NCBI RefSeq assembly: GCF_001430825.1
Contig: NZ_CP010535.1
Coordinates: 972,501 to 1,036,500 of the forward strand
Reading direction: 5' to 3'
Length of the DNA: 64,000 bases
Source: Sediminicola sp. YIK13
Lineage (GTDB): Bacteria; Bacteroidota; Bacteroidia; Flavobacteriales; Flavobacteriaceae
In this document: piece by piece, positions 27,411 through 44,836 of the stretch
Layout: each line of letters begins with the position of its first letter
How positions within the stretch are numbered: the first letter of the stretch is position 1
Translations under genes and position numbers: made by a program
Notes under the pieces: generated by a model
The model's database searches: none
Told to the model about the DNA's origin: nothing
The model's input: only the letters and a program-made list of their open reading frames with translations

Positions 27411-28250
27411 ATGGATAGTGAAAACCTTTCAAAATTTAACGCCTTTTTACAAACTCCACCCTTATGGCACGGAAACTATGATGGCCTAGAGCAATTTGAC
27501 TTTCCAAAAGTTGATCTGGAGCATTTACAGGTTGAGCACATACCCCAAAATATAAGATTGGGACATCAAATGGAATATGTTTTCCATCAACTTGTTCAAC
27601 ACTCATCGCGTTATAGGGTCAACGCCTATAATATTCCTATTAGACAGGATAAAATTAGTTTGGGTGAAATTGATTTTATCCTGAGGGATCTGGAAAAAAA
27701 CAAACTAGTACACGTTGAGCTTACCTTTAAGTTTTACATTTTGGATCCTACCTTTCCCAATCTTATCCACCAATTGATAGGGCCTAATAAAAGGGATACT
27801 TTTTATGCCAAAAAAGAGAAAATCAAACACCATCAGATACCATTATTGTATTCCAAAGAGGGTGACCGAACATTAAAAGACAGGGATATTGAAGTTAAGG
27901 ACCTGGATCACAAGGTTTGTTTTAAAGGCCAGGTCTATATTCCGTTAGATCTAGAAAACCAAGACCTAGCCCCTTTAAATACAGAATGTATTGCAGGATT
28001 CTGGATGACCAGGGATAATTTTTCATCCTTTATCAGAGAAGATATTCAATTTTATATTCCTTTTAAAAAGGAGTGGCCTCAAAACCCGACAGCTGGATTA
28101 CAGTGGCAGTCCTATCAAGAAATTGAGCAGGATTTAGATTCCCAATTGGCAAATAAAAACTCCCCCATGGTTTGGTTAAAAAAATCCAATGGGGAGTTCG
28201 TTAAAATTTTTGTGGTGTGGTGGTTAGGATTTGTTATGCCTAACTTTTAA
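27411..28250 (+). CDS. DUF1853 family protein, nuclease-like fold
   Basis: 279 aa cytosolic protein. GEIDFIL followed by LVHVELTFKFYI gives a D-x(n)-E-x-x-x-K arrangement like the PD-(D/E)XK nuclease core, which fits what is proposed for DUF1853. LIGPNKRDTFYAKKEKIKHHQ and GFWMTRDNFSSF are other family blocks. No substrate is known. It is divergent from the VWA gene, and its last 27 bases overlap the 3' end of hisIE on the other strand, so both genes end inside each other. Confidence 0.85.
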   Translation: MDSENLSKFNAFLQTPPLWHGNYDGLEQFDFPKVDLEHLQVEHIPQNIRLGHQMEYVFHQLVQHSSRYRVNAYNIPIRQDKISLGEIDFILRDLEKNKLVHVELTFKFYILDPTFPNLIHQLIGPNKRDTFYAKKEKIKHHQIPLLYSKEGDRTLKDRDIEVKDLDHKVCFKGQVYIPLDLENQDLAPLNTECIAGFWMTRDNFSSFIREDIQFYIPFKKEWPQNPTAGLQWQSYQEIEQDLDSQLANKNSPMVWLKKSNGEFVKIFVVWWLGFVMPNF

Positions 28251-28853
28251 AACTTCCACAATGTCATTCAATTTAAATCCTTTTGCCTGCAAAAGTATCA
28301 GGTAATGAAACAACAGATCGGCACTTTCGTCCAAGAAGAGTCCATCATTATTGTCTTTGGCCTCAATGACCACTTCCACAGCCTCTTCACCAACTTTCTG
28401 AGCTACCTTATTTATCCCTTTTTGAAAAAGAGAAGAGACATAGCTAGGTTTAGCTCCATCTTCAATGGGGGCTTTACCTTCCGCTTGGTCTTTTCTATTT
28501 TGGATGATATCTTCCAAGCCAGAAATAAACCCAAAAGCCTGTACATTTTTATCGCCCCAACAGGTATCAGTTCCCTTATGGCAAGTAGGTCCAATGGGAT
28601 CTACAGAGACTAAGAGGGTGTCCTGATCACAATCCAATTGAATATTAGTAAGTTTTAAGAAATTACCACTCTCCTCTCCTTTGGTCCACAGTCTGTTTTT
28701 GGTACGGCTAAAAAAGGTTACCGTCTTGGTTTCCATCGTTTTTTGGTAGGCTTCTTCGTTCATGTAGCCAAGCATTAAAACATTCTTGGTACTTGCATCC
28801 TGTATAATAGCCGGTACCAAACCGTCTGAATTTTTAGTAAAATCTATTTTCAT
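28224..28853 (-). CDS. hisIE: HisIE: phosphoribosyl-AMP cyclohydrolase / phosphoribosyl-ATP pyrophosphatase
   Basis: 209 aa fusion carrying out histidine steps 2 and 3. The HisI half (1-115) has FFSRTKNRLWTKGEESGNFL, metal-binding DCDQDT, and the zinc Cys residues in TCHKGTDTCWG. The HisE half (about 118-209) has the helical pyrophosphatase signature with KVGEEAVEVVIEAK and ESADLLFHYLILLQ. Last gene of the his operon, 73 bases after hisF. Its end overlaps the convergent DUF1853 gene by 27 bases. Confidence 0.97.
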   Translation of the reverse strand: MKIDFTKNSDGLVPAIIQDASTKNVLMLGYMNEEAYQKTMETKTVTFFSRTKNRLWTKGEESGNFLKLTNIQLDCDQDTLLVSVDPIGPTCHKGTDTCWGDKNVQAFGFISGLEDIIQNRKDQAEGKAPIEDGAKPSYVSSLFQKGINKVAQKVGEEAVEVVIEAKDNNDGLFLDESADLLFHYLILLQAKGFKLNDIVEVLKVRHNKS

Positions 28854-28926
28854 AATTTCCTGAGTATTGTAATATTGGAATATAGAAAAGCCATAATTTA
28901 TGGGATATTCTAAACTCTTAATTCTA

Positions 28927-29682
28927 TTATAAGCGTACCGGAATCTGGTTCCTTTTCAATTCTTCCTTTAAATCCTTAATATCAATTTCTTTAAAATGAA
29001 ATACACTGGCAGCCAAAGCAGCATCTGCCTTTCCTTCTATAAAAGTATCTGTGAAGTGCTGCATATTCCCCGCGCCTCCTGAGGCAATAATTGGAATATT
29101 AAGTTCTGTGGATAATTTGGCCAAGGCTTCATTTGCAAATCCATTTTTGGTACCATCATGGTTCATGGAGGTAAATAATATTTCGCCTGCACCACGTTGC
29201 TCCACTTCCTTTGCCCATTTAAAAAGATTAAGTTCTGTAGGTACTTTACCCCCTACCAAATGAACAATCCACTCCCCGTCTATTTCTTTGGCATCTATAG
29301 CAACCACAATACATTGTGATCCAAACTTGGCAACCAGGTCATTGATCAATTGTGGGTTTTTGACGGCAGAGGAATTGATGGAAACTTTATCGGCACCATT
29401 TTGCAATAGGATATCTACATCTTCTACCGAAGAAATTCCGCCACCCACAGTAAATGGTATATTTACTTTCTCCGCTACCCTTAAAACAAGATCGGCCAAG
29501 GTTCTCCGCCTTTCTTCCGTAGCCGAGATATCCAGGAAAACCAATTCATCAGCTCCTGTTTTTGCATATATCTCCGCCAGTTCCACTGGGTCTCCGGCAT
29601 CACGCAGATCCACGAAATTGATCCCCTTCACCGTGCGTCCATTTTTTATATCCAAACATGGAATAATACGTTTTGTCAACAT
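28927..29682 (-). CDS. hisF: Imidazole glycerol phosphate synthase, cyclase subunit
   Basis: 251 aa TIM barrel. With HisH it makes IGP and AICAR from PRFAR. The catalytic Asp in [15 protein letters not shown] and the second in [10 protein letters not shown] are present, as are the phosphate-binding loops FTVGGGISS and IIASGGAGN. Normal length. It lies 60 bases after hisA in the operon; HisH is encoded two genes earlier. Confidence 0.98.
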
Positions 29683-29742
29683 AAGTATATATTTTTTGAA
29701 AGGTTGAGAAGCTATCGCCTTCCTAAACTTTCAGGCTTAATT

Positions 29743-30474
29743 TTAGGTGCTTTTTAAAATAAATTCCTCCAATTGCTTCATAGAAATACGCCCTTCGTAA
29801 ATGGCTTTTCCAATAATTGTTCCCTCACACCCCATTTCTGCCAGTTTGGGCAGCTCATCAAAAGTAGAAATTCCCCCACTGGCTATGAGCTTAAGTTTTG
29901 GCCCTGTTTCTCTAATAATTTTTGAATAAAGATCAAAGGATGGACCTTCCAACATGCCGTCCTTACTAATATCTGTACAGATTACATAGGAAATTCCCTC
30001 CTTGAGGTACGTTTGGATAAAGGGTATTAATTCTTCCTTGGAATCTTCCAACCATCCGGAAACAGCCACCTTTTCGTCTTTCGCATCCGCACCAAGAATG
30101 ATTTTATCGGCACCATATTTTTGTATCCAATTGATAAAGGTGTCCCTATCTTTAACTGCAATGCTACCGCCGGTGATTTGTTGGGCACCGCTGTTGAATG
30201 CTATACGCAGATCTTCATCGGTTTTAAGTCCCCCACCAAAATCTATTTTTAAGGAGGTATTAGAAGCTATCTGCTCCAAGACCTTATGGTTTACAATGTG
30301 TTTGGATTTTGCACCATCCAAATCAACCAAGTGCAGATATTCGATACCATGGGCCTCAAACTCCTTGGCTACCTCTAGAGGATGTTCATTGTATATTTTT
30401 TTGGTATCATAATCCCCTTTTGAAAGGCGGACGCACTTACCATCTATGATATCTATTGCTGGTATTATTCTCAT
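29743..30474 (-). CDS. hisA: ProFAR isomerase
   Basis: Amadori isomerase of step 4, a TIM barrel paralogous to His[21 protein letters not shown] carries the first catalytic Asp, and [11 protein letters not shown] the second; [12 protein letters not shown] is a phosphate loop. I take the ATG at 30472-30474 (243 aa). An upstream in-frame ATG adds 14 residues but overlaps the GNAT gene and does not match the family. The gap to the GNAT stop is 8 bases. Confidence 0.96.
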
Positions 30475-30482
30475 TTTATTTT

Positions 30483-30902
30483 TTATAAAAGGACCATTTT
30501 GTCTTTGGTCATCCAAAGTTTAGAATCTCCTATTTTTTCAAATCCAAAGCGTTCGTAGAGCAAATGGGCATCTTTTGTCTTCAGCGCAAAGGTCTTTATG
30601 TTTCTTAACTTATCACTTTCCATTATTCGTGATATTAGCCTATTCCCCAAACCTTTACCTTGGTTACTATCAAATATTATTACATCCATCATATAGGCAA
30701 ATACGACAAAATCAGTAACTACCCTGGCAAAGCCCAATTGTTCATCTGTTTCTGAATACAAACCAAAGCATAATGAATTATCTATGGTTTTCTGTACATC
30801 TTCCAGGGATCTTCCCTTTCCCCAATAAGAATCTTCACTGATATATCGGTGAATTTTAGGAATGTCCAAGTCTTCTTTGTTGGTAGATATATACGTTTCC
30901 AT
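30483..30902 (-). CDS. GNAT-family N-acetyltransferase inside the his operon
   Basis: 139 aa. The acetyl-CoA-binding motif is [15 protein letters not shown] (Q/RxxGxG/A), preceded by [10 protein letters not shown] and followed by [17 protein letters not shown], all standard for GNAT enzymes. The substrate is unknown. The gene sits 3 bases after hisH and 8 bases before hisA, so it must be transcribed with histidine genes. It is not a known histidine enzyme; it may be a passenger or may act on an amine or small molecule linked to the pathway. Confidence 0.88.
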
Positions 30903-30905
30903 GCT

Positions 30906-31490
30906 TCAAATAACTTCTAGAAAATTTTTGAGGATTGCTTCACCGATCATACTGCTCTTTTCTGGGTGAAATTGCGTCCCATAAAAATTATTTTTCTGCA
31001 AGGCTGCGCTATAGGGTACATCATATTCGGATACAGCAATCGTTTCAGAACAAATAGGTGCATAATAACTATGTACGAGGTAAATATGTTCCATTTCGGG
31101 TATATCCTTGAATAATGATGTTTTTAAATCGGTAATTTGGTTCCACCCAATTTGTGGCACCTTTACCTGATCTGAGAATTTCTTTACATCTACATCAAAA
31201 ATCCCCAAACCTTGGGTATTTCCTTCTTCCGAAGAATGGCACATCAACTGCATCCCCAGGCATATTCCCAATACCGGTTGTTTTAGGTCTGGAATTATAA
31301 GGTCCAACTTACTGTCACGAAGCTTTTTCATGGCGCTGCTGGCCTCTCCCACTCCCGGGAAGATCACTTTATCCGCAGCCTTTATTTCTGCCACATTATC
31401 ACTTAGAACGGCCTCGTAGCCCAAGCGCTTTATTGCAAATTTGATACTCTGAATATTTCCAGCACCGTAGTTGATAATAACTATTTTCAT
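30906..31490 (-). CDS. hisH: Imidazole glycerol phosphate synthase, glutamine amidotransferase subunit
   Basis: 194 aa class-I amidotransferase that feeds ammonia to HisF. The nucleophile Cys lies in LGICLGMQLM, and the His-Glu pair in GTQFHPEKSS; YGAGNIQS is the N-terminal family motif. It is 85 bases after hisB and 3 bases before the GNAT gene. Confidence 0.97.
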   Translation of the reverse strand: MKIVIINYGAGNIQSIKFAIKRLGYEAVLSDNVAEIKAADKVIFPGVGEASSAMKKLRDSKLDLIIPDLKQPVLGICLGMQLMCHSSEEGNTQGLGIFDVDVKKFSDQVKVPQIGWNQITDLKTSLFKDIPEMEHIYLVHSYYAPICSETIAVSEYDVPYSAALQKNNFYGTQFHPEKSSMIGEAILKNFLEVI

Positions 31491-31575
31491 TCTTTTTTGG
31501 TAAACGATTTAGATACTTGGTTGCATCCCATCTCTTTTAGAACGGATTGCACAAACCTTGATCATTATTATAAAA

Positions 31576-32709
31576 TTACAGTACCCCTTTGGTGCTAGGC
31601 AAAACCATTTTTTCCACATCGCGCTTCACAGCCATTTTTATAGCTTTTGCGAAGGCCTTAAAAATGGCCTCAATTTTATGGTGCTCATTGGTTCCCTCTG
31701 CTTTGATGTTCAAATTGGCTTTCGCCCCATCGGTAAAAGATTTAAAGAAATGAAAGAACATTTCAGTTGGCATTTTTCCAATCATTTCACGCCTGAACTC
31801 TGTTTCCCATACCAACCAGTTACGGCCGCCAAAATCAATGGCAACTTGGGCCAAACAATCATCCATCGGTAAACAGAACCCATATCTTTCTATCCCCAGC
31901 TTATTTCCCAAGGCCTTATGGAATACCTCCCCCAAAGCTATCGCAGTATCTTCTATGGTGTGGTGTTCATCTACCTCCAAATCCCCTTTTACCTTGATAT
32001 CAAGGTCCATTTGACCGTGTCGCGCCAACTGGTCCAGCATATGGTCAAAAAAGTCGAGTCCGGTCTTTATACTGCTTTTTCCAGTCCCGTCCAGATTCAA
32101 TTTTATAAAGATATCCGTTTCATTGGTCTTCCTGTTGATCTCAAAAACCCTGTCCTTCAATTTTAAGAACTCATAAATTTTTTCCCAGTCGTTATTCTCT
32201 AAGGCTATCACATCATTGAGTTCCTCATGTTTAACCGTGATTTCCCCAGTACCTAAATTGGTGTTGTCATTGATGAAGATTCCTTTGGCTCCTAGGTTCT
32301 TTGCCAATTCCATATCAGTTAATCTATCCCCTATCACAAAGGAGTTTGCCAAATCATAGTCATCAGAAAAATACTCCGTCAGTAAACCGGTACCAGGTTT
32401 TCTAGTAGGGGCATTTTCATGTGGAAAGGTTCTATCCAAGAACACCTTGTCAAAAACCACTCCTTCATTCTCAAAAGAGTTTAGGATGAAATTGTGCACT
32501 GGCCAAAAGGTGTCCTCAGGAAAAATATCGGTTCCCAACCCGTCTTGGTTGGTGATCATGACCAATTCATAATCCAACTCCTTGGCAATTTTACCCAAAA
32601 ACGTAAATGCTTTGGGATAAAAGATCATTTTATCAAAGGCATCTATTTGTTCATCAACTGTTTCCTTGATGATAGTGCCGTCCCTGTCTATAAATAATAC
32701 TTTTTTCAT
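31576..32709 (-). CDS. hisB: HisB: histidinol-phosphatase / imidazoleglycerol-phosphate dehydratase
   Basis: 377 aa bifunctional enzyme. The N-terminal HAD phosphatase (about 1-165) has the nucleophile pair in FIDRDGTII and [13 protein letters not shown]. The C-terminal dehydratase (about 185-377) has the metal His motifs [14 protein letters not shown] and DEHHTIEDT, plus [13 protein letters not shown]. The fusion provides histidinol phosphatase, so the operon needs no separate hisN. It is 51 bases after hisC. Confidence 0.97.
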
Positions 32710-32760
32710 ATGACCCTGATCTTTGGCCCAACTTTATACAAGAGGGCTTTGAGAATTTTT

Positions 32761-33816
32761 TTATTGGTTATCTAATTCCTTTAATTGTTCTATTAATTTT
32801 TTATTTTCCGCTGCAGTCCCTACCGTAAACCTTAAGGTATTTAAACATAGAGGTTGTGTTGTCCTATTTCTGATCACAATACCAGCCTCCAATAATTGAT
32901 TGTATCTTTTGGTAGCGTCATCTACTTTGGCCAAAATAAAATTAGCATCGGTAGGATATATGGTATCTACAAAACTCATGTCTGACAGTACCGCTTCCAA
33001 TGCGCTTCTCTCCTTTAGGATATTCGTTACTTCCTCTTGTACCTTATCAATATCCTGAAGTCTTTTTAGGGCTCGCTGTTGGGTCAGTTCATTGACATTA
33101 TACGGTGGCTTGATCTTATTGAGCACCGCAATTATTTCTGACGACGCGTAACAGATCCCTAGTCGGATTCCCGCAAGGCCATAAGCTTTAGAAAGGGTTT
33201 GGGTAACCACCAAGTTAGGGTATTGGGATAATTCGCCAATCCAACTGGCATCCTTAGAGAAATCTATATAAGCTTCATCAATAACGACCAGACCATTAAA
33301 TTTAGTCAATAATTCATGGATATGGGCACTTGAGATACCATTTCCAGTAGGGTTATTAGGGGAACAAACAAATAATAGCTTACTCCTTTGGTCCTTTGCC
33401 TTGAGGATCTCTGCCACGTTTGGCTGGAATTCATCTGTCAACAAGACCTCCCTATTTTCTATGTTATTGATGTTGGAAAGCACTTTGTACATCCCATATG
33501 TTGGAGGTAATGAAATAATATTGTCCTCCTTTGGCTCACAAAAGGCCCTAAATAGTAAATCCAGCACTTCATCACTCCCATTTCCAAGAAGGATCTGTGA
33601 TACTTCAACACCTTTCTGGGAAGCTAACACAGCCTTTAGGCCCCGCTGTTGGGGATCTGGATATCTGTTGACCCCATTTTCATATGGATTTTCGTTGGCA
33701 TCCAAGAAAACCATCTGAGATCCATCGGAAACATACTCATCCCTCGCAGAGGAGTATGGACTGAGTCCCTTTACGTTCTCCCTAACCAGATTATTTATAT
33801 TAAATTCTATTTTCAT
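32761..33816 (-). CDS. hisC: Histidinol-phosphate aminotransferase
   Basis: 351 aa class-I/II PLP aminotransferase. The PLP lysine lies in TLSKAYGLAGIRLG, NPTGN is the substrate-carboxylate segment, and LLGNGSDEVLDLLFRAF is the cofactor loop. The C-terminus has GIVIRNRTTQPLCLNTLRFT, typical for HisC. It follows hisD by 60 bases. Confidence 0.97.
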   Translation of the reverse strand: MKIEFNINNLVRENVKGLSPYSSARDEYVSDGSQMVFLDANENPYENGVNRYPDPQQRGLKAVLASQKGVEVSQILLGNGSDEVLDLLFRAFCEPKEDNIISLPPTYGMYKVLSNINNIENREVLLTDEFQPNVAEILKAKDQRSKLLFVCSPNNPTGNGISSAHIHELLTKFNGLVVIDEAYIDFSKDASWIGELSQYPNLVVTQTLSKAYGLAGIRLGICYASSEIIAVLNKIKPPYNVNELTQQRALKRLQDIDKVQEEVTNILKERSALEAVLSDMSFVDTIYPTDANFILAKVDDATKRYNQLLEAGIVIRNRTTQPLCLNTLRFTVGTAAENKKLIEQLKELDNQ

Positions 33817-33876
33817 AGTCTACGCCACAAGGACCAATTGCCGAAAATTTAGTGCTTCGAACTGGTTCCGGATAAA

Positions 33877-35166
33877 TTAATTATTTTTTAAACTTTTTAG
33901 TCTAAGGGTAACGGCATTCTTATGCGCCTGTAACCCTTCCGCTTCTGCCATAACCTCTATGGTCCTTCCAATTGCCTGTATCCCTTTATCAGAAATCTTT
34001 TGGAAGGTCATACTTTTCATAAAACTATCCAGGTTTACCCCACTGTATTGTTTGGCATACCCATTTGTAGGCAAGGTATGGTTGGTACCTGATGCATAAT
34101 CCCCAGCACTTTCCGGGGTATAATTGCCAATAAATACCGATCCTGCATTGAAGGTATTATCCAAAAAGAAAGCTTCATTCTCCACACAAAGGATGTAATG
34201 CTCAGGTCCATACTCATTGATAAGGTCAATAGCGGTCTGCTCTTCGTCAACATAAATCAGCTTACTATTGGCGATAGCCTGCACTGCTATCTCCTTTCTG
34301 GGGAGTGCTTCAATTTGAACTTCTACCTCTTTTTCCACGGCTTCTATTAGTTGCTTGGACGTGGAAACGAGAATAACCTGACTGTCCACACCGTGCTCGG
34401 CCTGACTCAATAAGTCCGAGGCTACAAATGCCGCATTCGCGGAATCATCGGCCATGACCAATAATTCACTGGGTCCTGCAGGCATGTCAATGGCCACTCC
34501 AAATTTAGTGGCTATTTGCTTGGCAACGGTCACATATTGGTTTCCCGGTCCAAAGATCTTATACACTTTGGGCATGGTTTCCGTACCAAAGGTCATTCCG
34601 GCAATTGCCTGGATACCACCTACCTTGAAAATTTGGGTTACCCCACAAAGACTGGCCGTATATAATATCGCTGGATCAATTTTTCCCTCCTTGTTGGGAG
34701 GCGTACATAAAACAACTTCCCCACAACCAGCAATGGCAGCAGGAACCGCCAACATTAAAATTGTTGAAAACAAAGGTGCGGTCCCACCAGGAATATAGAG
34801 CCCTACCTTTTGTATTGGTCTTTTCTCCTGCCAACACGCCACTCCCTCGGTGGTTTCCACCTCTATTTTAGAAGTTATTTGGGCCTTATGGAAAACTTCA
34901 ATGTTGCTTTTTGCCTGAAGGATGGCCTTTTTAAGTTCTTCTGAAACTAAGGATAACCCTTCTTCCAATTCTATTTCAGTGACTTTGTTATCCTCTTGAT
35001 CGACCCCATCAAATTGTTGGGTATACCTTCTTAACACCTGATCACCATTTGTCTTAACCTCTGTGAAAATCTTATTGACAATATCTTCAATTTGATCAAC
35101 CTCTTGTGTCGGCCTCTTTAAAAGAGCTGCCCAGTCCTTTCTTTCCGGATTATATATTTTGTTCAT
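33877..35166 (-). CDS. hisD: Histidinol dehydrogenase
   Basis: NAD-dependent zinc enzyme for the last two steps to histidine. Visible are GLYIPGGTAPLFST, GPGNQYVTVAKQ, DMPAGPSELLVM, SQAEHGVDSQ, and the C-terminal GDYASGTNHTLPTNGYAK with the catalytic and zinc His. The start is taken as the ATG at 35164-35166 (MNKIYNPERKDW, 429 aa), which overlaps the hisG stop as TAATG; the in-frame upstream ATG would lie deeper in hisG. Confidence 0.96.
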   Translation of the reverse strand: MNKIYNPERKDWAALLKRPTQEVDQIEDIVNKIFTEVKTNGDQVLRRYTQQFDGVDQEDNKVTEIELEEGLSLVSEELKKAILQAKSNIEVFHKAQITSKIEVETTEGVACWQEKRPIQKVGLYIPGGTAPLFSTILMLAVPAAIAGCGEVVLCTPPNKEGKIDPAILYTASLCGVTQIFKVGGIQAIAGMTFGTETMPKVYKIFGPGNQYVTVAKQIATKFGVAIDMPAGPSELLVMADDSANAAFVASDLLSQAEHGVDSQVILVSTSKQLIEAVEKEVEVQIEALPRKEIAVQAIANSKLIYVDEEQTAIDLINEYGPEHYILCVENEAFFLDNTFNAGSVFIGNYTPESAGDYASGTNHTLPTNGYAKQYSGVNLDSFMKSMTFQKISDKGIQAIGRTIEVMAEAEGLQAHKNAVTLRLKSLKNN

Positions 35167-36023
35167 TACAGGACCATTTTTTCTATTGGACAAACTAATA
35201 TTCCTTCAGCTCCTGCCTCCTTTAATTCCTGGATCACTTCCCAGAACTTGTCTTTATTGATAACGGTGTGCACGGAGCTCCATCCTTCCTCTGCCAATGG
35301 CAAGACTGTTGGACTCCTCATTCCCGGCAATAGGGCAATGATTTCCTGCAGTTTTTCATTTGGGGCATTCAAGAGCACATACTTCGATTGACGGGCTCTT
35401 AAAACCGATTGAATTCTAAAACGTAGTTTTTCCAAGAGCAGGGTACTTTCCTTAGAAATCTCTGGAGAAACTGCCAAAACAGCCTCACTGTGCAACATTA
35501 TCTCAACTTCCTTGAGATTATTTTTGAAAAGGGTACTCCCGCTGGATACTATGTCACAAATGGCATCGGCAAGGCCAATATTAGGTGCAATTTCAACCGA
35601 TCCGCTGATAATGTGCAACTCTGCCTTAACCCCTTTTTCCTTTAAATAACTCTCAACGGTATTTGGATAGGAGGTAGCAATTCTTTTGCCTTCAAAATCC
35701 TTTACAGATTGGTATTTGACCGATTTTGGTACAGCAAGGGAAACCTTACACTTAGAAAAACCAAGTTTTTCAGCCACTATTATGTCCTGCCCTTTCTCTA
35801 TTAATACATTCTCGCCTATAATGGCAATGTCCACTACTCCATCCCTTAAATACTGTGGGATGTCACCGTTTCTAAGATAAAACACTTCTAAGGGGAAATT
35901 TCTTGAGGAGGCCTTGAGCTGATCTTTCCCATTATCTATGGAGATACCACAATCCTTTAAGATCTGTAGGGAATCTTCATTTAGGCGTCCACTTTTTTGA
36001 ATAGCAATTTTAATTTTTTTCAT
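35166..36023 (-). CDS. hisG: ATP phosphoribosyltransferase, long form
   Basis: 285 aa from the ATG at 36021-36023 (MKKIKIAIQKSGRLNEDS). It catalyses the first committed step of histidine synthesis. The catalytic part has YLRNGDIPQYLRDGVVDIAIIG and the PRPP loop IVSSGSTLFKNNL. The extra C-terminal domain (about 210-285, LLPGMRSPTVLPL onward) is the ACT-like feedback domain of long HisG, so histidine inhibition is expected. First structural gene of the operon, about 110 bases after a leader peptide and 45 bases after an attenuator hairpin, so it is also controlled by transcription attenuation. Confidence 0.96.
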   Translation of the reverse strand: MKKIKIAIQKSGRLNEDSLQILKDCGISIDNGKDQLKASSRNFPLEVFYLRNGDIPQYLRDGVVDIAIIGENVLIEKGQDIIVAEKLGFSKCKVSLAVPKSVKYQSVKDFEGKRIATSYPNTVESYLKEKGVKAELHIISGSVEIAPNIGLADAICDIVSSGSTLFKNNLKEVEIMLHSEAVLAVSPEISKESTLLLEKLRFRIQSVLRARQSKYVLLNAPNEKLQEIIALLPGMRSPTVLPLAEEGWSSVHTVINKDKFWEVIQELKEAGAEGILVCPIEKMVL

Positions 36024-36068: not shown

Positions 36069-36103
36069 TAAAAACAAAACCCGTTTGATTGCTCAAACGG
36101 GTT
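36069..36103 (-). terminator. Attenuator terminator of the his operon
   Basis: On the minus strand AACCCGTTTGA (36093-36103) pairs perfectly with TCAAACGGGTT (36078-36088) around a 4-nt loop, followed by TTTGTTTTT (36069-36077). It sits between the His-rich leader peptide and hisG, where a read-through decision would be made. Confidence 0.9.
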
Positions 36104-36133
36104 AGAATATATTTTAGTTACAACAATACATTT

Positions 36134-36190
36134 CTAGCTCGCCTGATTGCAAGTAAAGAAATGATGATGGTGTACAATGTACTTTTTCAT
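36134..36190 (-). CDS. hisL: Histidine operon leader peptide
   Basis: An 18-codon ATG-to-TAG frame encoding MKKYIVHHHHFFTCNQAS, with four consecutive His codons (CAC CAT CAT CAT). It ends 31 bases before an 11-bp attenuator hairpin and lies on the his operon strand upstream of hisG. This is the layout of enterobacterial his attenuation: scarce charged tRNA-His stalls the ribosome on the His run and prevents the terminator from forming. I could not define the competing anti-terminator helix by eye. The coding and role are strongly supported by position and content. Confidence 0.9.
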   Translation of the reverse strand: MKKYIVHHHHFFTCNQAS

Positions 36191-36197
36191 AATGACG

Positions 36198-36205
36198 CAA
36201 AAATA
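36198..36205 (-). promoter_or_regulatory. Candidate -7 element of the his operon promoter
   Basis: TATTTTTG on the minus strand fits the Bacteroidetes TAnnTTTG -7 box, 8 bases upstream of the leader-peptide ATG. A good TTG -33 box is not seen at the expected distance. If used, the leader peptide would have an almost absent 5' untranslated region. Confidence 0.4.
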
Positions 36206-36266: not shown

Positions 36267-37082
36267 CTACTGATTACCTAAAATTATGGGCAACCCACTA
36301 TCGCCAGAACCAATAACAATTACTTTGCTATTTGGGGATTCCGCTAATTTAATAGTCGCTTCTATCCCTTTGTCCTGAAGAATTTTATCATTCAACGAAG
36401 CACTCAAAATACGGTTCGACTCTGCCTTACCTTGGGCTTCTATTATTACTTTTTCAGCCTCTTTTTGAGCGGTCACCAATCTAAATTCATATTCCAAAGA
36501 TTCTTGTTCTTGCTTCAACTTGCGCTCAATAGCCTCCTTTATAGTTGGTGGTAAGGTCACATCGCGAACCAGTACCTCATTGAGTTGTATGTACTGACCG
36601 TCAACAATTTTTTTGGTTTCCTCATAAATTTCTGCCTGTATGGCGTCCCTTTTACTAGAATATAATTGTTCTGGGGTATAACGTCCTACAACACTTCTGG
36701 CAGCAGATCTTATTGTTGGCAATAGTACACGCTGAATGTATTCCTCTCCTTTTTCTTGGTGCAATTTTCCCAAGAATTCTCTTTTAGGTTCAAACCAAGC
36801 GGAAGCATCTAATTTAATATCCAATCCATTAGAGGATAGCACATTCATTTTTTCGAACACTTCTTGTTGTCTTACTTCGTAAATGAAGACTTTGTTCCAA
36901 GGGGCCACTATATGAAAACCTTCGCCCATTGCAGGCTCATCGGTAACAACACCTCCCCCAAAAGTTTCATATAAAACGCCTGCCTTACCAGATCCAATGG
37001 TAACAGCCGATTTGGTGATTAGAATAACCAATAAAATAATAATAAATATTGCAGGTAATGCAATCTTAGGTAATTTGTCCAT
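36267..37082 (-). CDS. Prohibitin-family SPFH membrane protein
   Basis: 271 aa. One N-terminal transmembrane helix (about 7-26) is followed by an SPFH/prohibitin domain (IGSGKAGVLYETFGGG; RQQEVFEKMNVLSSNGLDIKLDA; VVGRYTPEQLYSSKRDAIQ) and a coiled-coil segment (about 190-240). Prohibitins form large membrane rings that act as scaffolds and chaperones, often with FtsH or other proteases. It is the second gene after the 677-aa VWA membrane protein with a 15-base gap, so the two are co-transcribed. The bacterial function remains poorly defined. Confidence 0.9.
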   Translation of the reverse strand: MDKLPKIALPAIFIIILLVILITKSAVTIGSGKAGVLYETFGGGVVTDEPAMGEGFHIVAPWNKVFIYEVRQQEVFEKMNVLSSNGLDIKLDASAWFEPKREFLGKLHQEKGEEYIQRVLLPTIRSAARSVVGRYTPEQLYSSKRDAIQAEIYEETKKIVDGQYIQLNEVLVRDVTLPPTIKEAIERKLKQEQESLEYEFRLVTAQKEAEKVIIEAQGKAESNRILSASLNDKILQDKGIEATIKLAESPNSKVIVIGSGDSGLPIILGNQ

Positions 37083-43435: not shown

Positions 43436-44836
43436 TTATTTCTTTTTTGCTATTTGTGCCATCATTTCTGCCTCGCAAACCAATTTACCGTTTGCATAAG
43501 CATAAGCTTGCATATGGCATATTCCTCTCCTTATAGGGGTAATTAGGCTACAGTGAAAGGTTAGGGTGTCACCTGGCAATACTTTTTGTTTAAATTTTAC
43601 ATTATCGATCTTCATAAAGAAGGTCAGATAATTCTCGGGATCGGGAACAGTACTCAAAACCAAGATTCCTCCGGTCTGTGCCATGGCCTCCACCTGTAAA
43701 ACTCCAGGCATCACAGGAGCATCGGGAAAATGTCCTACAAAAAAAGGTTCGTTCATGGTCACGTTCTTCATTCCTACCACATGACTATCGGACAGTTCCA
43801 AAATTCTGTCGATCAATAAGAATGGTGGTCTATGTGGCAACATGGCCATAATTTGATGGATATCCATCAAGGGTGGCAGGTTGAGATCATAGGTAGGAAC
43901 GCTGTTCCTTTTCTCCATTTTTATTATTTTGGACAATTTTTGTGCAAATTGGGTATTCACAAAATGCCCCGGTTTATTTGCAATGACTTTACCTCGTATC
44001 CTTGTACCTACCAAGGCAAGGTCACCTATAACATCCAATAGCTTATGCCTTGCAGCCTCGTTTGGATGGTGTAGGGTAAGGTTGTCCAGAATGCCATTTG
44101 GTTTTACCGAAAGCTTTTCTTTTTTAAAGGCTTTTTGTAGTTTCAACATGGTAGATTCGGAAATCTCCTTATCTACATATACAATGGCGTTATTTAGATC
44201 ACCTCCTTTAATCAACCCATGCTCCAACAACATTTCCAGTTCATGTAAAAAACTAAAAGTACGCGCTAGGGCTATTTCTGTTTTAAAATCTGATAAACGC
44301 TCCAAGGTTGCATTTTGGGTCCCTAATACTTTGGTCCCAAAATCGACCATGGTGGTCACTTGGTATTCATCTGAAGGAATGATGGTAATTTCACTTCCAG
44401 TGGCCTCGTCTTTATAGGTAATAACCTCTTTTACTACATATTCATTCCTAACAGCATCTTGTTCCACAATGCCAGCTTTTTCCAAAGCTTCTATAAAAAA
44501 CTTGGAGGAACCATCCATTATGGGCGGTTCAGACGAGTTGAGCTCTATGAGGACATTATCAATTTCCAAACCTACCAGAGCAGCTAGCACGTGCTCAGAA
44601 GTTTGAATCTTGACCCCATTTTTTTCTAAATTGGTACCGCGCTGGGTATTCACCACATAATTGGCATCGGCCTCAATGATGGGTTCCCCTTCTATATCAA
44701 CTCTTTTGAAGGCGTAGCCATGGTTTTCAGGAGCTGGCACAAATTTCATTGTGACATTCTCTCCGGTATGTAATCCAACACCGGACAGTGTAATCTCCTT
44801 CTCTATAGTCCTTTGTTTAGCAGTTGTTTTACTCAC
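43436..44836 (-). CDS. lpxC-fabZ: LpxC-FabZ fusion: deacetylase / hydroxyacyl-ACP dehydratase
   Basis: 466 aa. Residues about 8-300 are LpxC, the zinc deacetylase committing to lipid A (GVGLHTGENVTMKF; TSEHVLAALVGLEIDN with the zinc His; a second His motif in the DNLTLHHPNEAARHKLLD region). Residues about 320-466 are FabZ (MLPHRPPFLLIDRIL; GHFPDAPVMPGVLQVEAMAQ with catalytic His and Glu). The fusion is characteristic of Bacteroidetes and ties hydroxyacyl use in lipid A to fatty-acid elongation. It overlaps lpxD by 8 bases. Confidence 0.97.
   Translation of the reverse strand: MSKTTAKQRTIEKEITLSGVGLHTGENVTMKFVPAPENHGYAFKRVDIEGEPIIEADANYVVNTQRGTNLEKNGVKIQTSEHVLAALVGLEIDNVLIELNSSEPPIMDGSSKFFIEALEKAGIVEQDAVRNEYVVKEVITYKDEATGSEITIIPSDEYQVTTMVDFGTKVLGTQNATLERLSDFKTEIALARTFSFLHELEMLLEHGLIKGGDLNNAIVYVDKEISESTMLKLQKAFKKEKLSVKPNGILDNLTLHHPNEAARHKLLDVIGDLALVGTRIRGKVIANKPGHFVNTQFAQKLSKIIKMEKRNSVPTYDLNLPPLMDIHQIMAMLPHRPPFLLIDRILELSDSHVVGMKNVTMNEPFFVGHFPDAPVMPGVLQVEAMAQTGGILVLSTVPDPENYLTFFMKIDNVKFKQKVLPGDTLTFHCSLITPIRRGICHMQAYAYANGKLVCEAEMMAQIAKKK

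Follow-up and report, generated by a model that had tools for sequence, protein, structure and literature searches.

The window, that is the whole stretch of 64,000 nucleotides analyzed here from Sediminicola sp. YIK13, carries a complete his operon on the minus strand. The first gene, hisG (35166..36023, ATG at 36023-36021), was identified with NCBIfam TIGR00070 (190 bits) and is followed by hisD, hisC, hisB, hisH, a GNAT-like gene, hisA, hisF and hisIE (28224..35166, minus strand); the NCBIfam models placed hisG and all of the other his genes in one array. The GNAT-like acetyltransferase gene between hisH and hisA (30483-30902, minus strand) had weak family matches, all below cut-off, and the SPFH/HflK-like gene directly upstream of the his leader (36267-37082, minus strand) gave weak HflK/HflC matches only. 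Elsewhere in the window, a 466-aa ORF (43436-44836, minus strand) was assigned by eye and is presumably an LpxC-FabZ fusion. Such fusions are usual in Bacteroidetes.

Ahead of hisG, and on the same strand, lies a leader peptide ORF, MKKYIVHHHHFFTCNQAS (36134..36190), which is kept in relatives. It opens with ATG at 36190-36188, ends with TAG at 36136-36134 and contains four consecutive His codons, CAC CAT CAT CAT (36161..36172), which are the proposed stall sites. Downstream of the stop codon follows an intrinsic terminator hairpin (36078..36103), read directly, with a perfect 11-bp stem, the arms AACCCGTTTGA (36103-36093) and TCAAACGGGTT (36088-36078), the loop GCAA, and a T-run, TTGTTTTT, at 36070..36077. 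The stem sequence is present once in the 3.57-Mb genome. A promoter -7 box of the TAnnTTTG type, TATTTTTG, lies upstream of the ATG at 36198..36205. The leader frame, His run, hairpin, T-run and gene order could all be read directly where the initial annotation had placed them. Dinucleotide shuffling of hisG upstream regions indicated that such an arrangement clearly exceeds chance, as a His-rich leader ORF arose in 10 of 3000 shuffles and the full layout of leader, terminator and antiterminator in none of 3000.

No antiterminator had been found by eye in the initial annotation; folding located one. From 36152 to the terminator loop, the transcript folds so that the antiterminator strand TTGC-aa-TCAGGCG (36140..36152, minus strand) pairs with CGUUUGA-GCAA (36099-36089), at -16.3 kcal/mol and z -3.0. 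Because this helix uses the 5′ arm and the loop of the terminator, the two structures are mutually exclusive. Folding also gave an inner hairpin extending the antiterminator (UAGAA/UUCUA and UGUAUU/AAUAUA, 36102..36136, minus strand), which is less conserved than the outer helix. The antiterminator strand encodes C-N-Q-A near the end of the leader peptide, and in 71 of 76 close relatives its Ala residue is encoded by GCG, against a GCG share of 12% among the Ala codons of 15 nearby genes of the window; the constraint acts on the RNA. The leader stop codon sits on the same strand, the strand end falling -7 to +17 nt from the stop, with a median of 0, across 108 leaders.

In the untranslated leader, folding conceals the antiterminator strand within a protector hairpin that starts with the last His codon and ends shortly beyond the stop (36129..36163, minus strand): CAUUUCU, made up of that codon and the four bases after it, pairs with AGAAAUG, and CUUGC pairs with GCGAG. 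In an ungapped alignment of 62 leaders, seven of its pairs carried two-sided changes, amounting to 30 such cells, counts that are inflated by the kinship of the sequences. None of 500 shuffles reached 30 cells, and slid registers paired far less. RNAalifold predicted no consensus on the protector alignment. As judged from these comparisons, the helix 36163-36129 is well supported but not proven.

Folding was then carried out by ribosome state, with the front edge of the ribosome set at +12 from the A site. A ribosome placed on any one of the four His codons let the antiterminator form (-15.4 to -16.3 kcal/mol) before the 3′ arm of the terminator had been made; placed on the stop codon, it left the terminator as the only structure able to form, and without a ribosome the protector and terminator formed together. 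In these models the full helix set of a classical attenuator is present, with a 1:2 protector, a 2:3 antiterminator and a 3:4 terminator. At equilibrium the terminator was the deeper fold even when the ribosome was stalled (-22 to -26 vs. -15 to -17 kcal/mol), so that antitermination would have to be kinetic.

Conservation was assessed in 80 loci of close relatives found via hisG (Arenibacter, Maribacter, Zobellia, Cellulophaga, Eudoraea, Muriicola, Kordia and others). Nearly all of them retained the leader, the stem CCCGTTTGA/TCAAACGGG and the strand CARGCGAG, and a run of 3-4 His persisted in 75 of 76 close relatives. The initial annotation had named a lack of conserved His codons or hairpin in relatives as a refutation, and this comparison did not refute it. 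In the terminator stem, 99.4% of cells were paired (62 relatives). The His run and the QA codons lay a nearly constant five codons apart, a distance at which a ribosome on the His run would leave most of the antiterminator strand free. Broken or imperfect terminator stems were seen in L094 (genome G053), where MKNYNLHHHLPSSLNAVGM is interrupted, and in L043 (CCCGGTTGA vs. TCAAGCGGG); these are possibly relaxing or remodeled attenuators. Searched with a covariance model of the leader, 230 of 249 Flavobacteriaceae genomes, from 171 of 186 genera, gave a match, with a single strong match per genome in the nine inspected individually. Extra copies of the leader RNA were considered and rejected, as secondary matches were weak and those inspected were ordinary terminators without leader peptides.

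The antiterminator core was nearly invariant among close relatives and showed no two-sided changes, so covariation there was uninformative and families with different stems were compared instead. A hisG match was obtained in 171 of 198 Bacteroidota genomes, and 60 hisG upstream regions were taken from genomes with such a match. Fifty of the 60 had a His-rich leader, and 31 had leader, terminator and antiterminator together when scored by one set of automatic criteria. The terminator arm varied by family and the antiterminator strand changed along with it: TCARGCG is found with CGTTTGA in Flavobacteriaceae, AGACGG with CCGTCT in L105/L106, GCAGGTAG with CTACCTGT in L108, GGGTAAGCT with GGCTTACCC in L113 and L126, and GAGCCGGG with CCCCGGCTT in L137. 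In a partner-swap test of 21 leaders, hand-picked for having a terminator and with a few boundaries set by eye, the native mean duplex energy was -14.9 kcal/mol, a value attained by 0 of 20,000 permutations (permuted mean -9.7, sd 0.68). The test is conservative, since several representatives share a stem.

Some Bacteroidota carried a His-rich leader roughly 250 to 100 nt before hisG with no recognizable intrinsic terminator (L114, L117, L121; L133-L136; L140-L142). In L133-L136 a hairpin seems to pair the final His codons with GGCGAT, which lies directly ahead of the stop, and in L114, L117 and L121 the stop codon lies inside a hairpin, TCCTC..GAGGA. These families may use a different control mode.

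The conserved His codons, the covarying antiterminator, the protector hairpin and the position of the stop codon on the antiterminator strand support the His-codon attenuator reading of the initial annotation, and the element is very probably a ribosome-mediated transcription attenuator of the his operon. Other explanations were weighed against it. That the hairpin serves only as the terminator of the upstream SPFH-family gene, with the His-rich ORF a bystander, might be suggested by the arrangement, as this gene (36267-37082) shares the strand of the leader, has its end 77 nt upstream of it and keeps its syntenic position in 76 of 80 close relatives. However, leader, terminator and antiterminator persist where the neighbor is different or where the longest frame upstream is oriented away from the leader (L104, L108, L110, L113, L126, L139), and a bystander ORF would not keep its His codons and a matching antiterminator strand. 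A terminator of the upstream gene was thus ruled out, and we regard this explanation as scarcely credible.

Control of hisG through the nascent peptide sequence, or through translational coupling or reinitiation, in place of codon stalling, would fit the conserved QAR/QAS C-terminus of the peptide, and a role in helping translation of the following gene has been put forward for short leader genes (PMC4833913). The QA residues are conserved at the codon level, however, as pairing requires (the GCG bias given above); in other families the C-terminus of the leader changes completely while the pairing remains, and the 111 nt from leader stop to hisG start far exceed the coupling peak of about 10-14 nt (PMC4833913). 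This makes such control very unlikely. Just as improbable is a terminator switched by a protein, a small ligand or an uncharged tRNA in the manner of a T-box, with the leader peptide secondary. Several helices are able to alternate, and the Rfam L20_leader family overlaps the region with a weak, sub-threshold match (22.1 bits, cut-off 58.7), but no T-box or riboswitch family of Rfam matched there, a search with the T-box riboswitch covariance model included, and the His run persists when the stem sequences change.

Under the attenuator reading, the site at which the ribosome pauses on the His-rich leader most likely decides whether transcription stops early. From the anatomy, conservation, covariation and mutual exclusion of helices described above, we infer the following course for ribosome stalling, termination and the response to histidine. 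RNA polymerase would start a short distance, a few nucleotides, upstream of the leader ATG, and ribosome loading would follow immediately. With ample charged His-tRNA, the ribosome would reach UAG and cover the antiterminator strand (36152-36140), upon which the terminator would fold and transcription would end before hisG. With scarce His-tRNA, it would stall on the four His codons and cover strand 1 of the protector, leaving the antiterminator strand free to pair with the 5′ arm of the terminator once that arm is made; with the antiterminator formed, the polymerase would continue into hisG. If the leader were untranslated, the protector would hide the antiterminator strand and termination would be the default.

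The initial annotation had suggested that the mechanism may differ in detail from that of enteric bacteria. A different start of translation is indeed plausible, as the promoter box lies close enough to the ATG for a nearly leaderless mRNA. In close relatives, a TAnnTTT(G/A) box ended 6-8 nt before the ATG in 72 of 78, compared with a background rate of 1.3% at 6-9 nt. The promoter box of Flavobacterium psychrophilum is reported at -12 to -5 (PMC9723704), and applying this position to 36205-36198 predicts a transcription start at 36193 and a 5′ UTR of 3 nt. Such a leader would be unusual, given that leaderless mRNAs made up 5.5% of the mRNAs examined in F. psychrophilum (PMC9723704) and 5′ UTRs of <10 nt about 3.7% in Bacteroides thetaiotaomicron (PMC7366714). 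Shine-Dalgarno sequences are not recognized by Bacteroidia ribosomes (PMC9976891). For the Arenibacter/Maribacter/Zobellia clade, we put at even chances that the leader is started from a near-leaderless mRNA (5′ UTR of about 2-4 nt), and that the first ribosome loads there, at the 5′ end, with no need for a Shine-Dalgarno site. In other genera the box lies 10-35 nt upstream of the leader ATG, which would limit the near-leaderless start to some clades. The same genome has a Bacteroid-trp attenuator before trpE, outside the window (L084:1501-1617 = G000:C1:177721-177837, 58.7 bits); its leader, MKNRIANTWWWKNLRTTS, has the box TATATTTG 7 nt before the ATG, so that two attenuators of the genome would share this layout.

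Leader-peptide attenuation is a textbook principle, and the enterobacterial his attenuator (hisL of E. coli and Salmonella) combines a His-codon run, an exclusive antiterminator and terminator, and a protector ahead of hisG. The element described here is alike in each of these respects. It differs in having four His codons as against seven in hisL, in having one strand set fewer than the A-F strand scheme of the enteric attenuator, in its promoter type and, probably, in its near-leaderless start. Attenuators in Bacteroidetes/Chlorobi were reportedly mentioned by Vitreschak and others in 2004. The his leader matched no Rfam model at threshold; His_leader gave no match at the gathering score and was absent among matches up to E 10, and the window had no match to Bacteroid-trp (RF01692), whose sole match in the genome is the one at trpE. 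That family, the trp attenuator of Bacteroidetes in Rfam (PMC2864571, PMC6414381), is found in the same phylum and follows the same logic, but has Trp codons, serves another operon and differs in sequence. A structured 5′ element ahead of hisG has been reported in F. psychrophilum; it is conserved in other genera and has no Rfam match, and ‘strong clues’ were noted that amino-acid operons are under leader-peptide attenuation (PMC9723704). The main text of that report gives no strand-level mechanism for the hisG element. As far as described there, it shares gene and bacterial family with the Sediminicola his leader, and the two are probably the same element. Our literature search found no strand-level description of a Bacteroidota his attenuator. 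The kind of attenuator is thus known, though hardly described from this phylum, and the hisG element had been noticed before; the present analysis adds the helices with their covariation, the spread across the phylum and a start that is likely near-leaderless.

The his leader is absent from Rfam, and occurs in a phylum that translates without Shine-Dalgarno sites; the covariance model could annotate it in hundreds of genomes. The 31 phylum-wide leaders, with their lineage-specific stems, form a test set for ribosome-polymerase coupling. If the near-leaderless start holds true, attenuation in a phylum with a hidden anti-Shine-Dalgarno would need a special start mode, coupling the first ribosome to the polymerase as the transcript emerges. 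Judging from the sequences compared, classical codon-stalling attenuation with all of its alternative helices is indicated for histidine synthesis across much of Bacteroidota.
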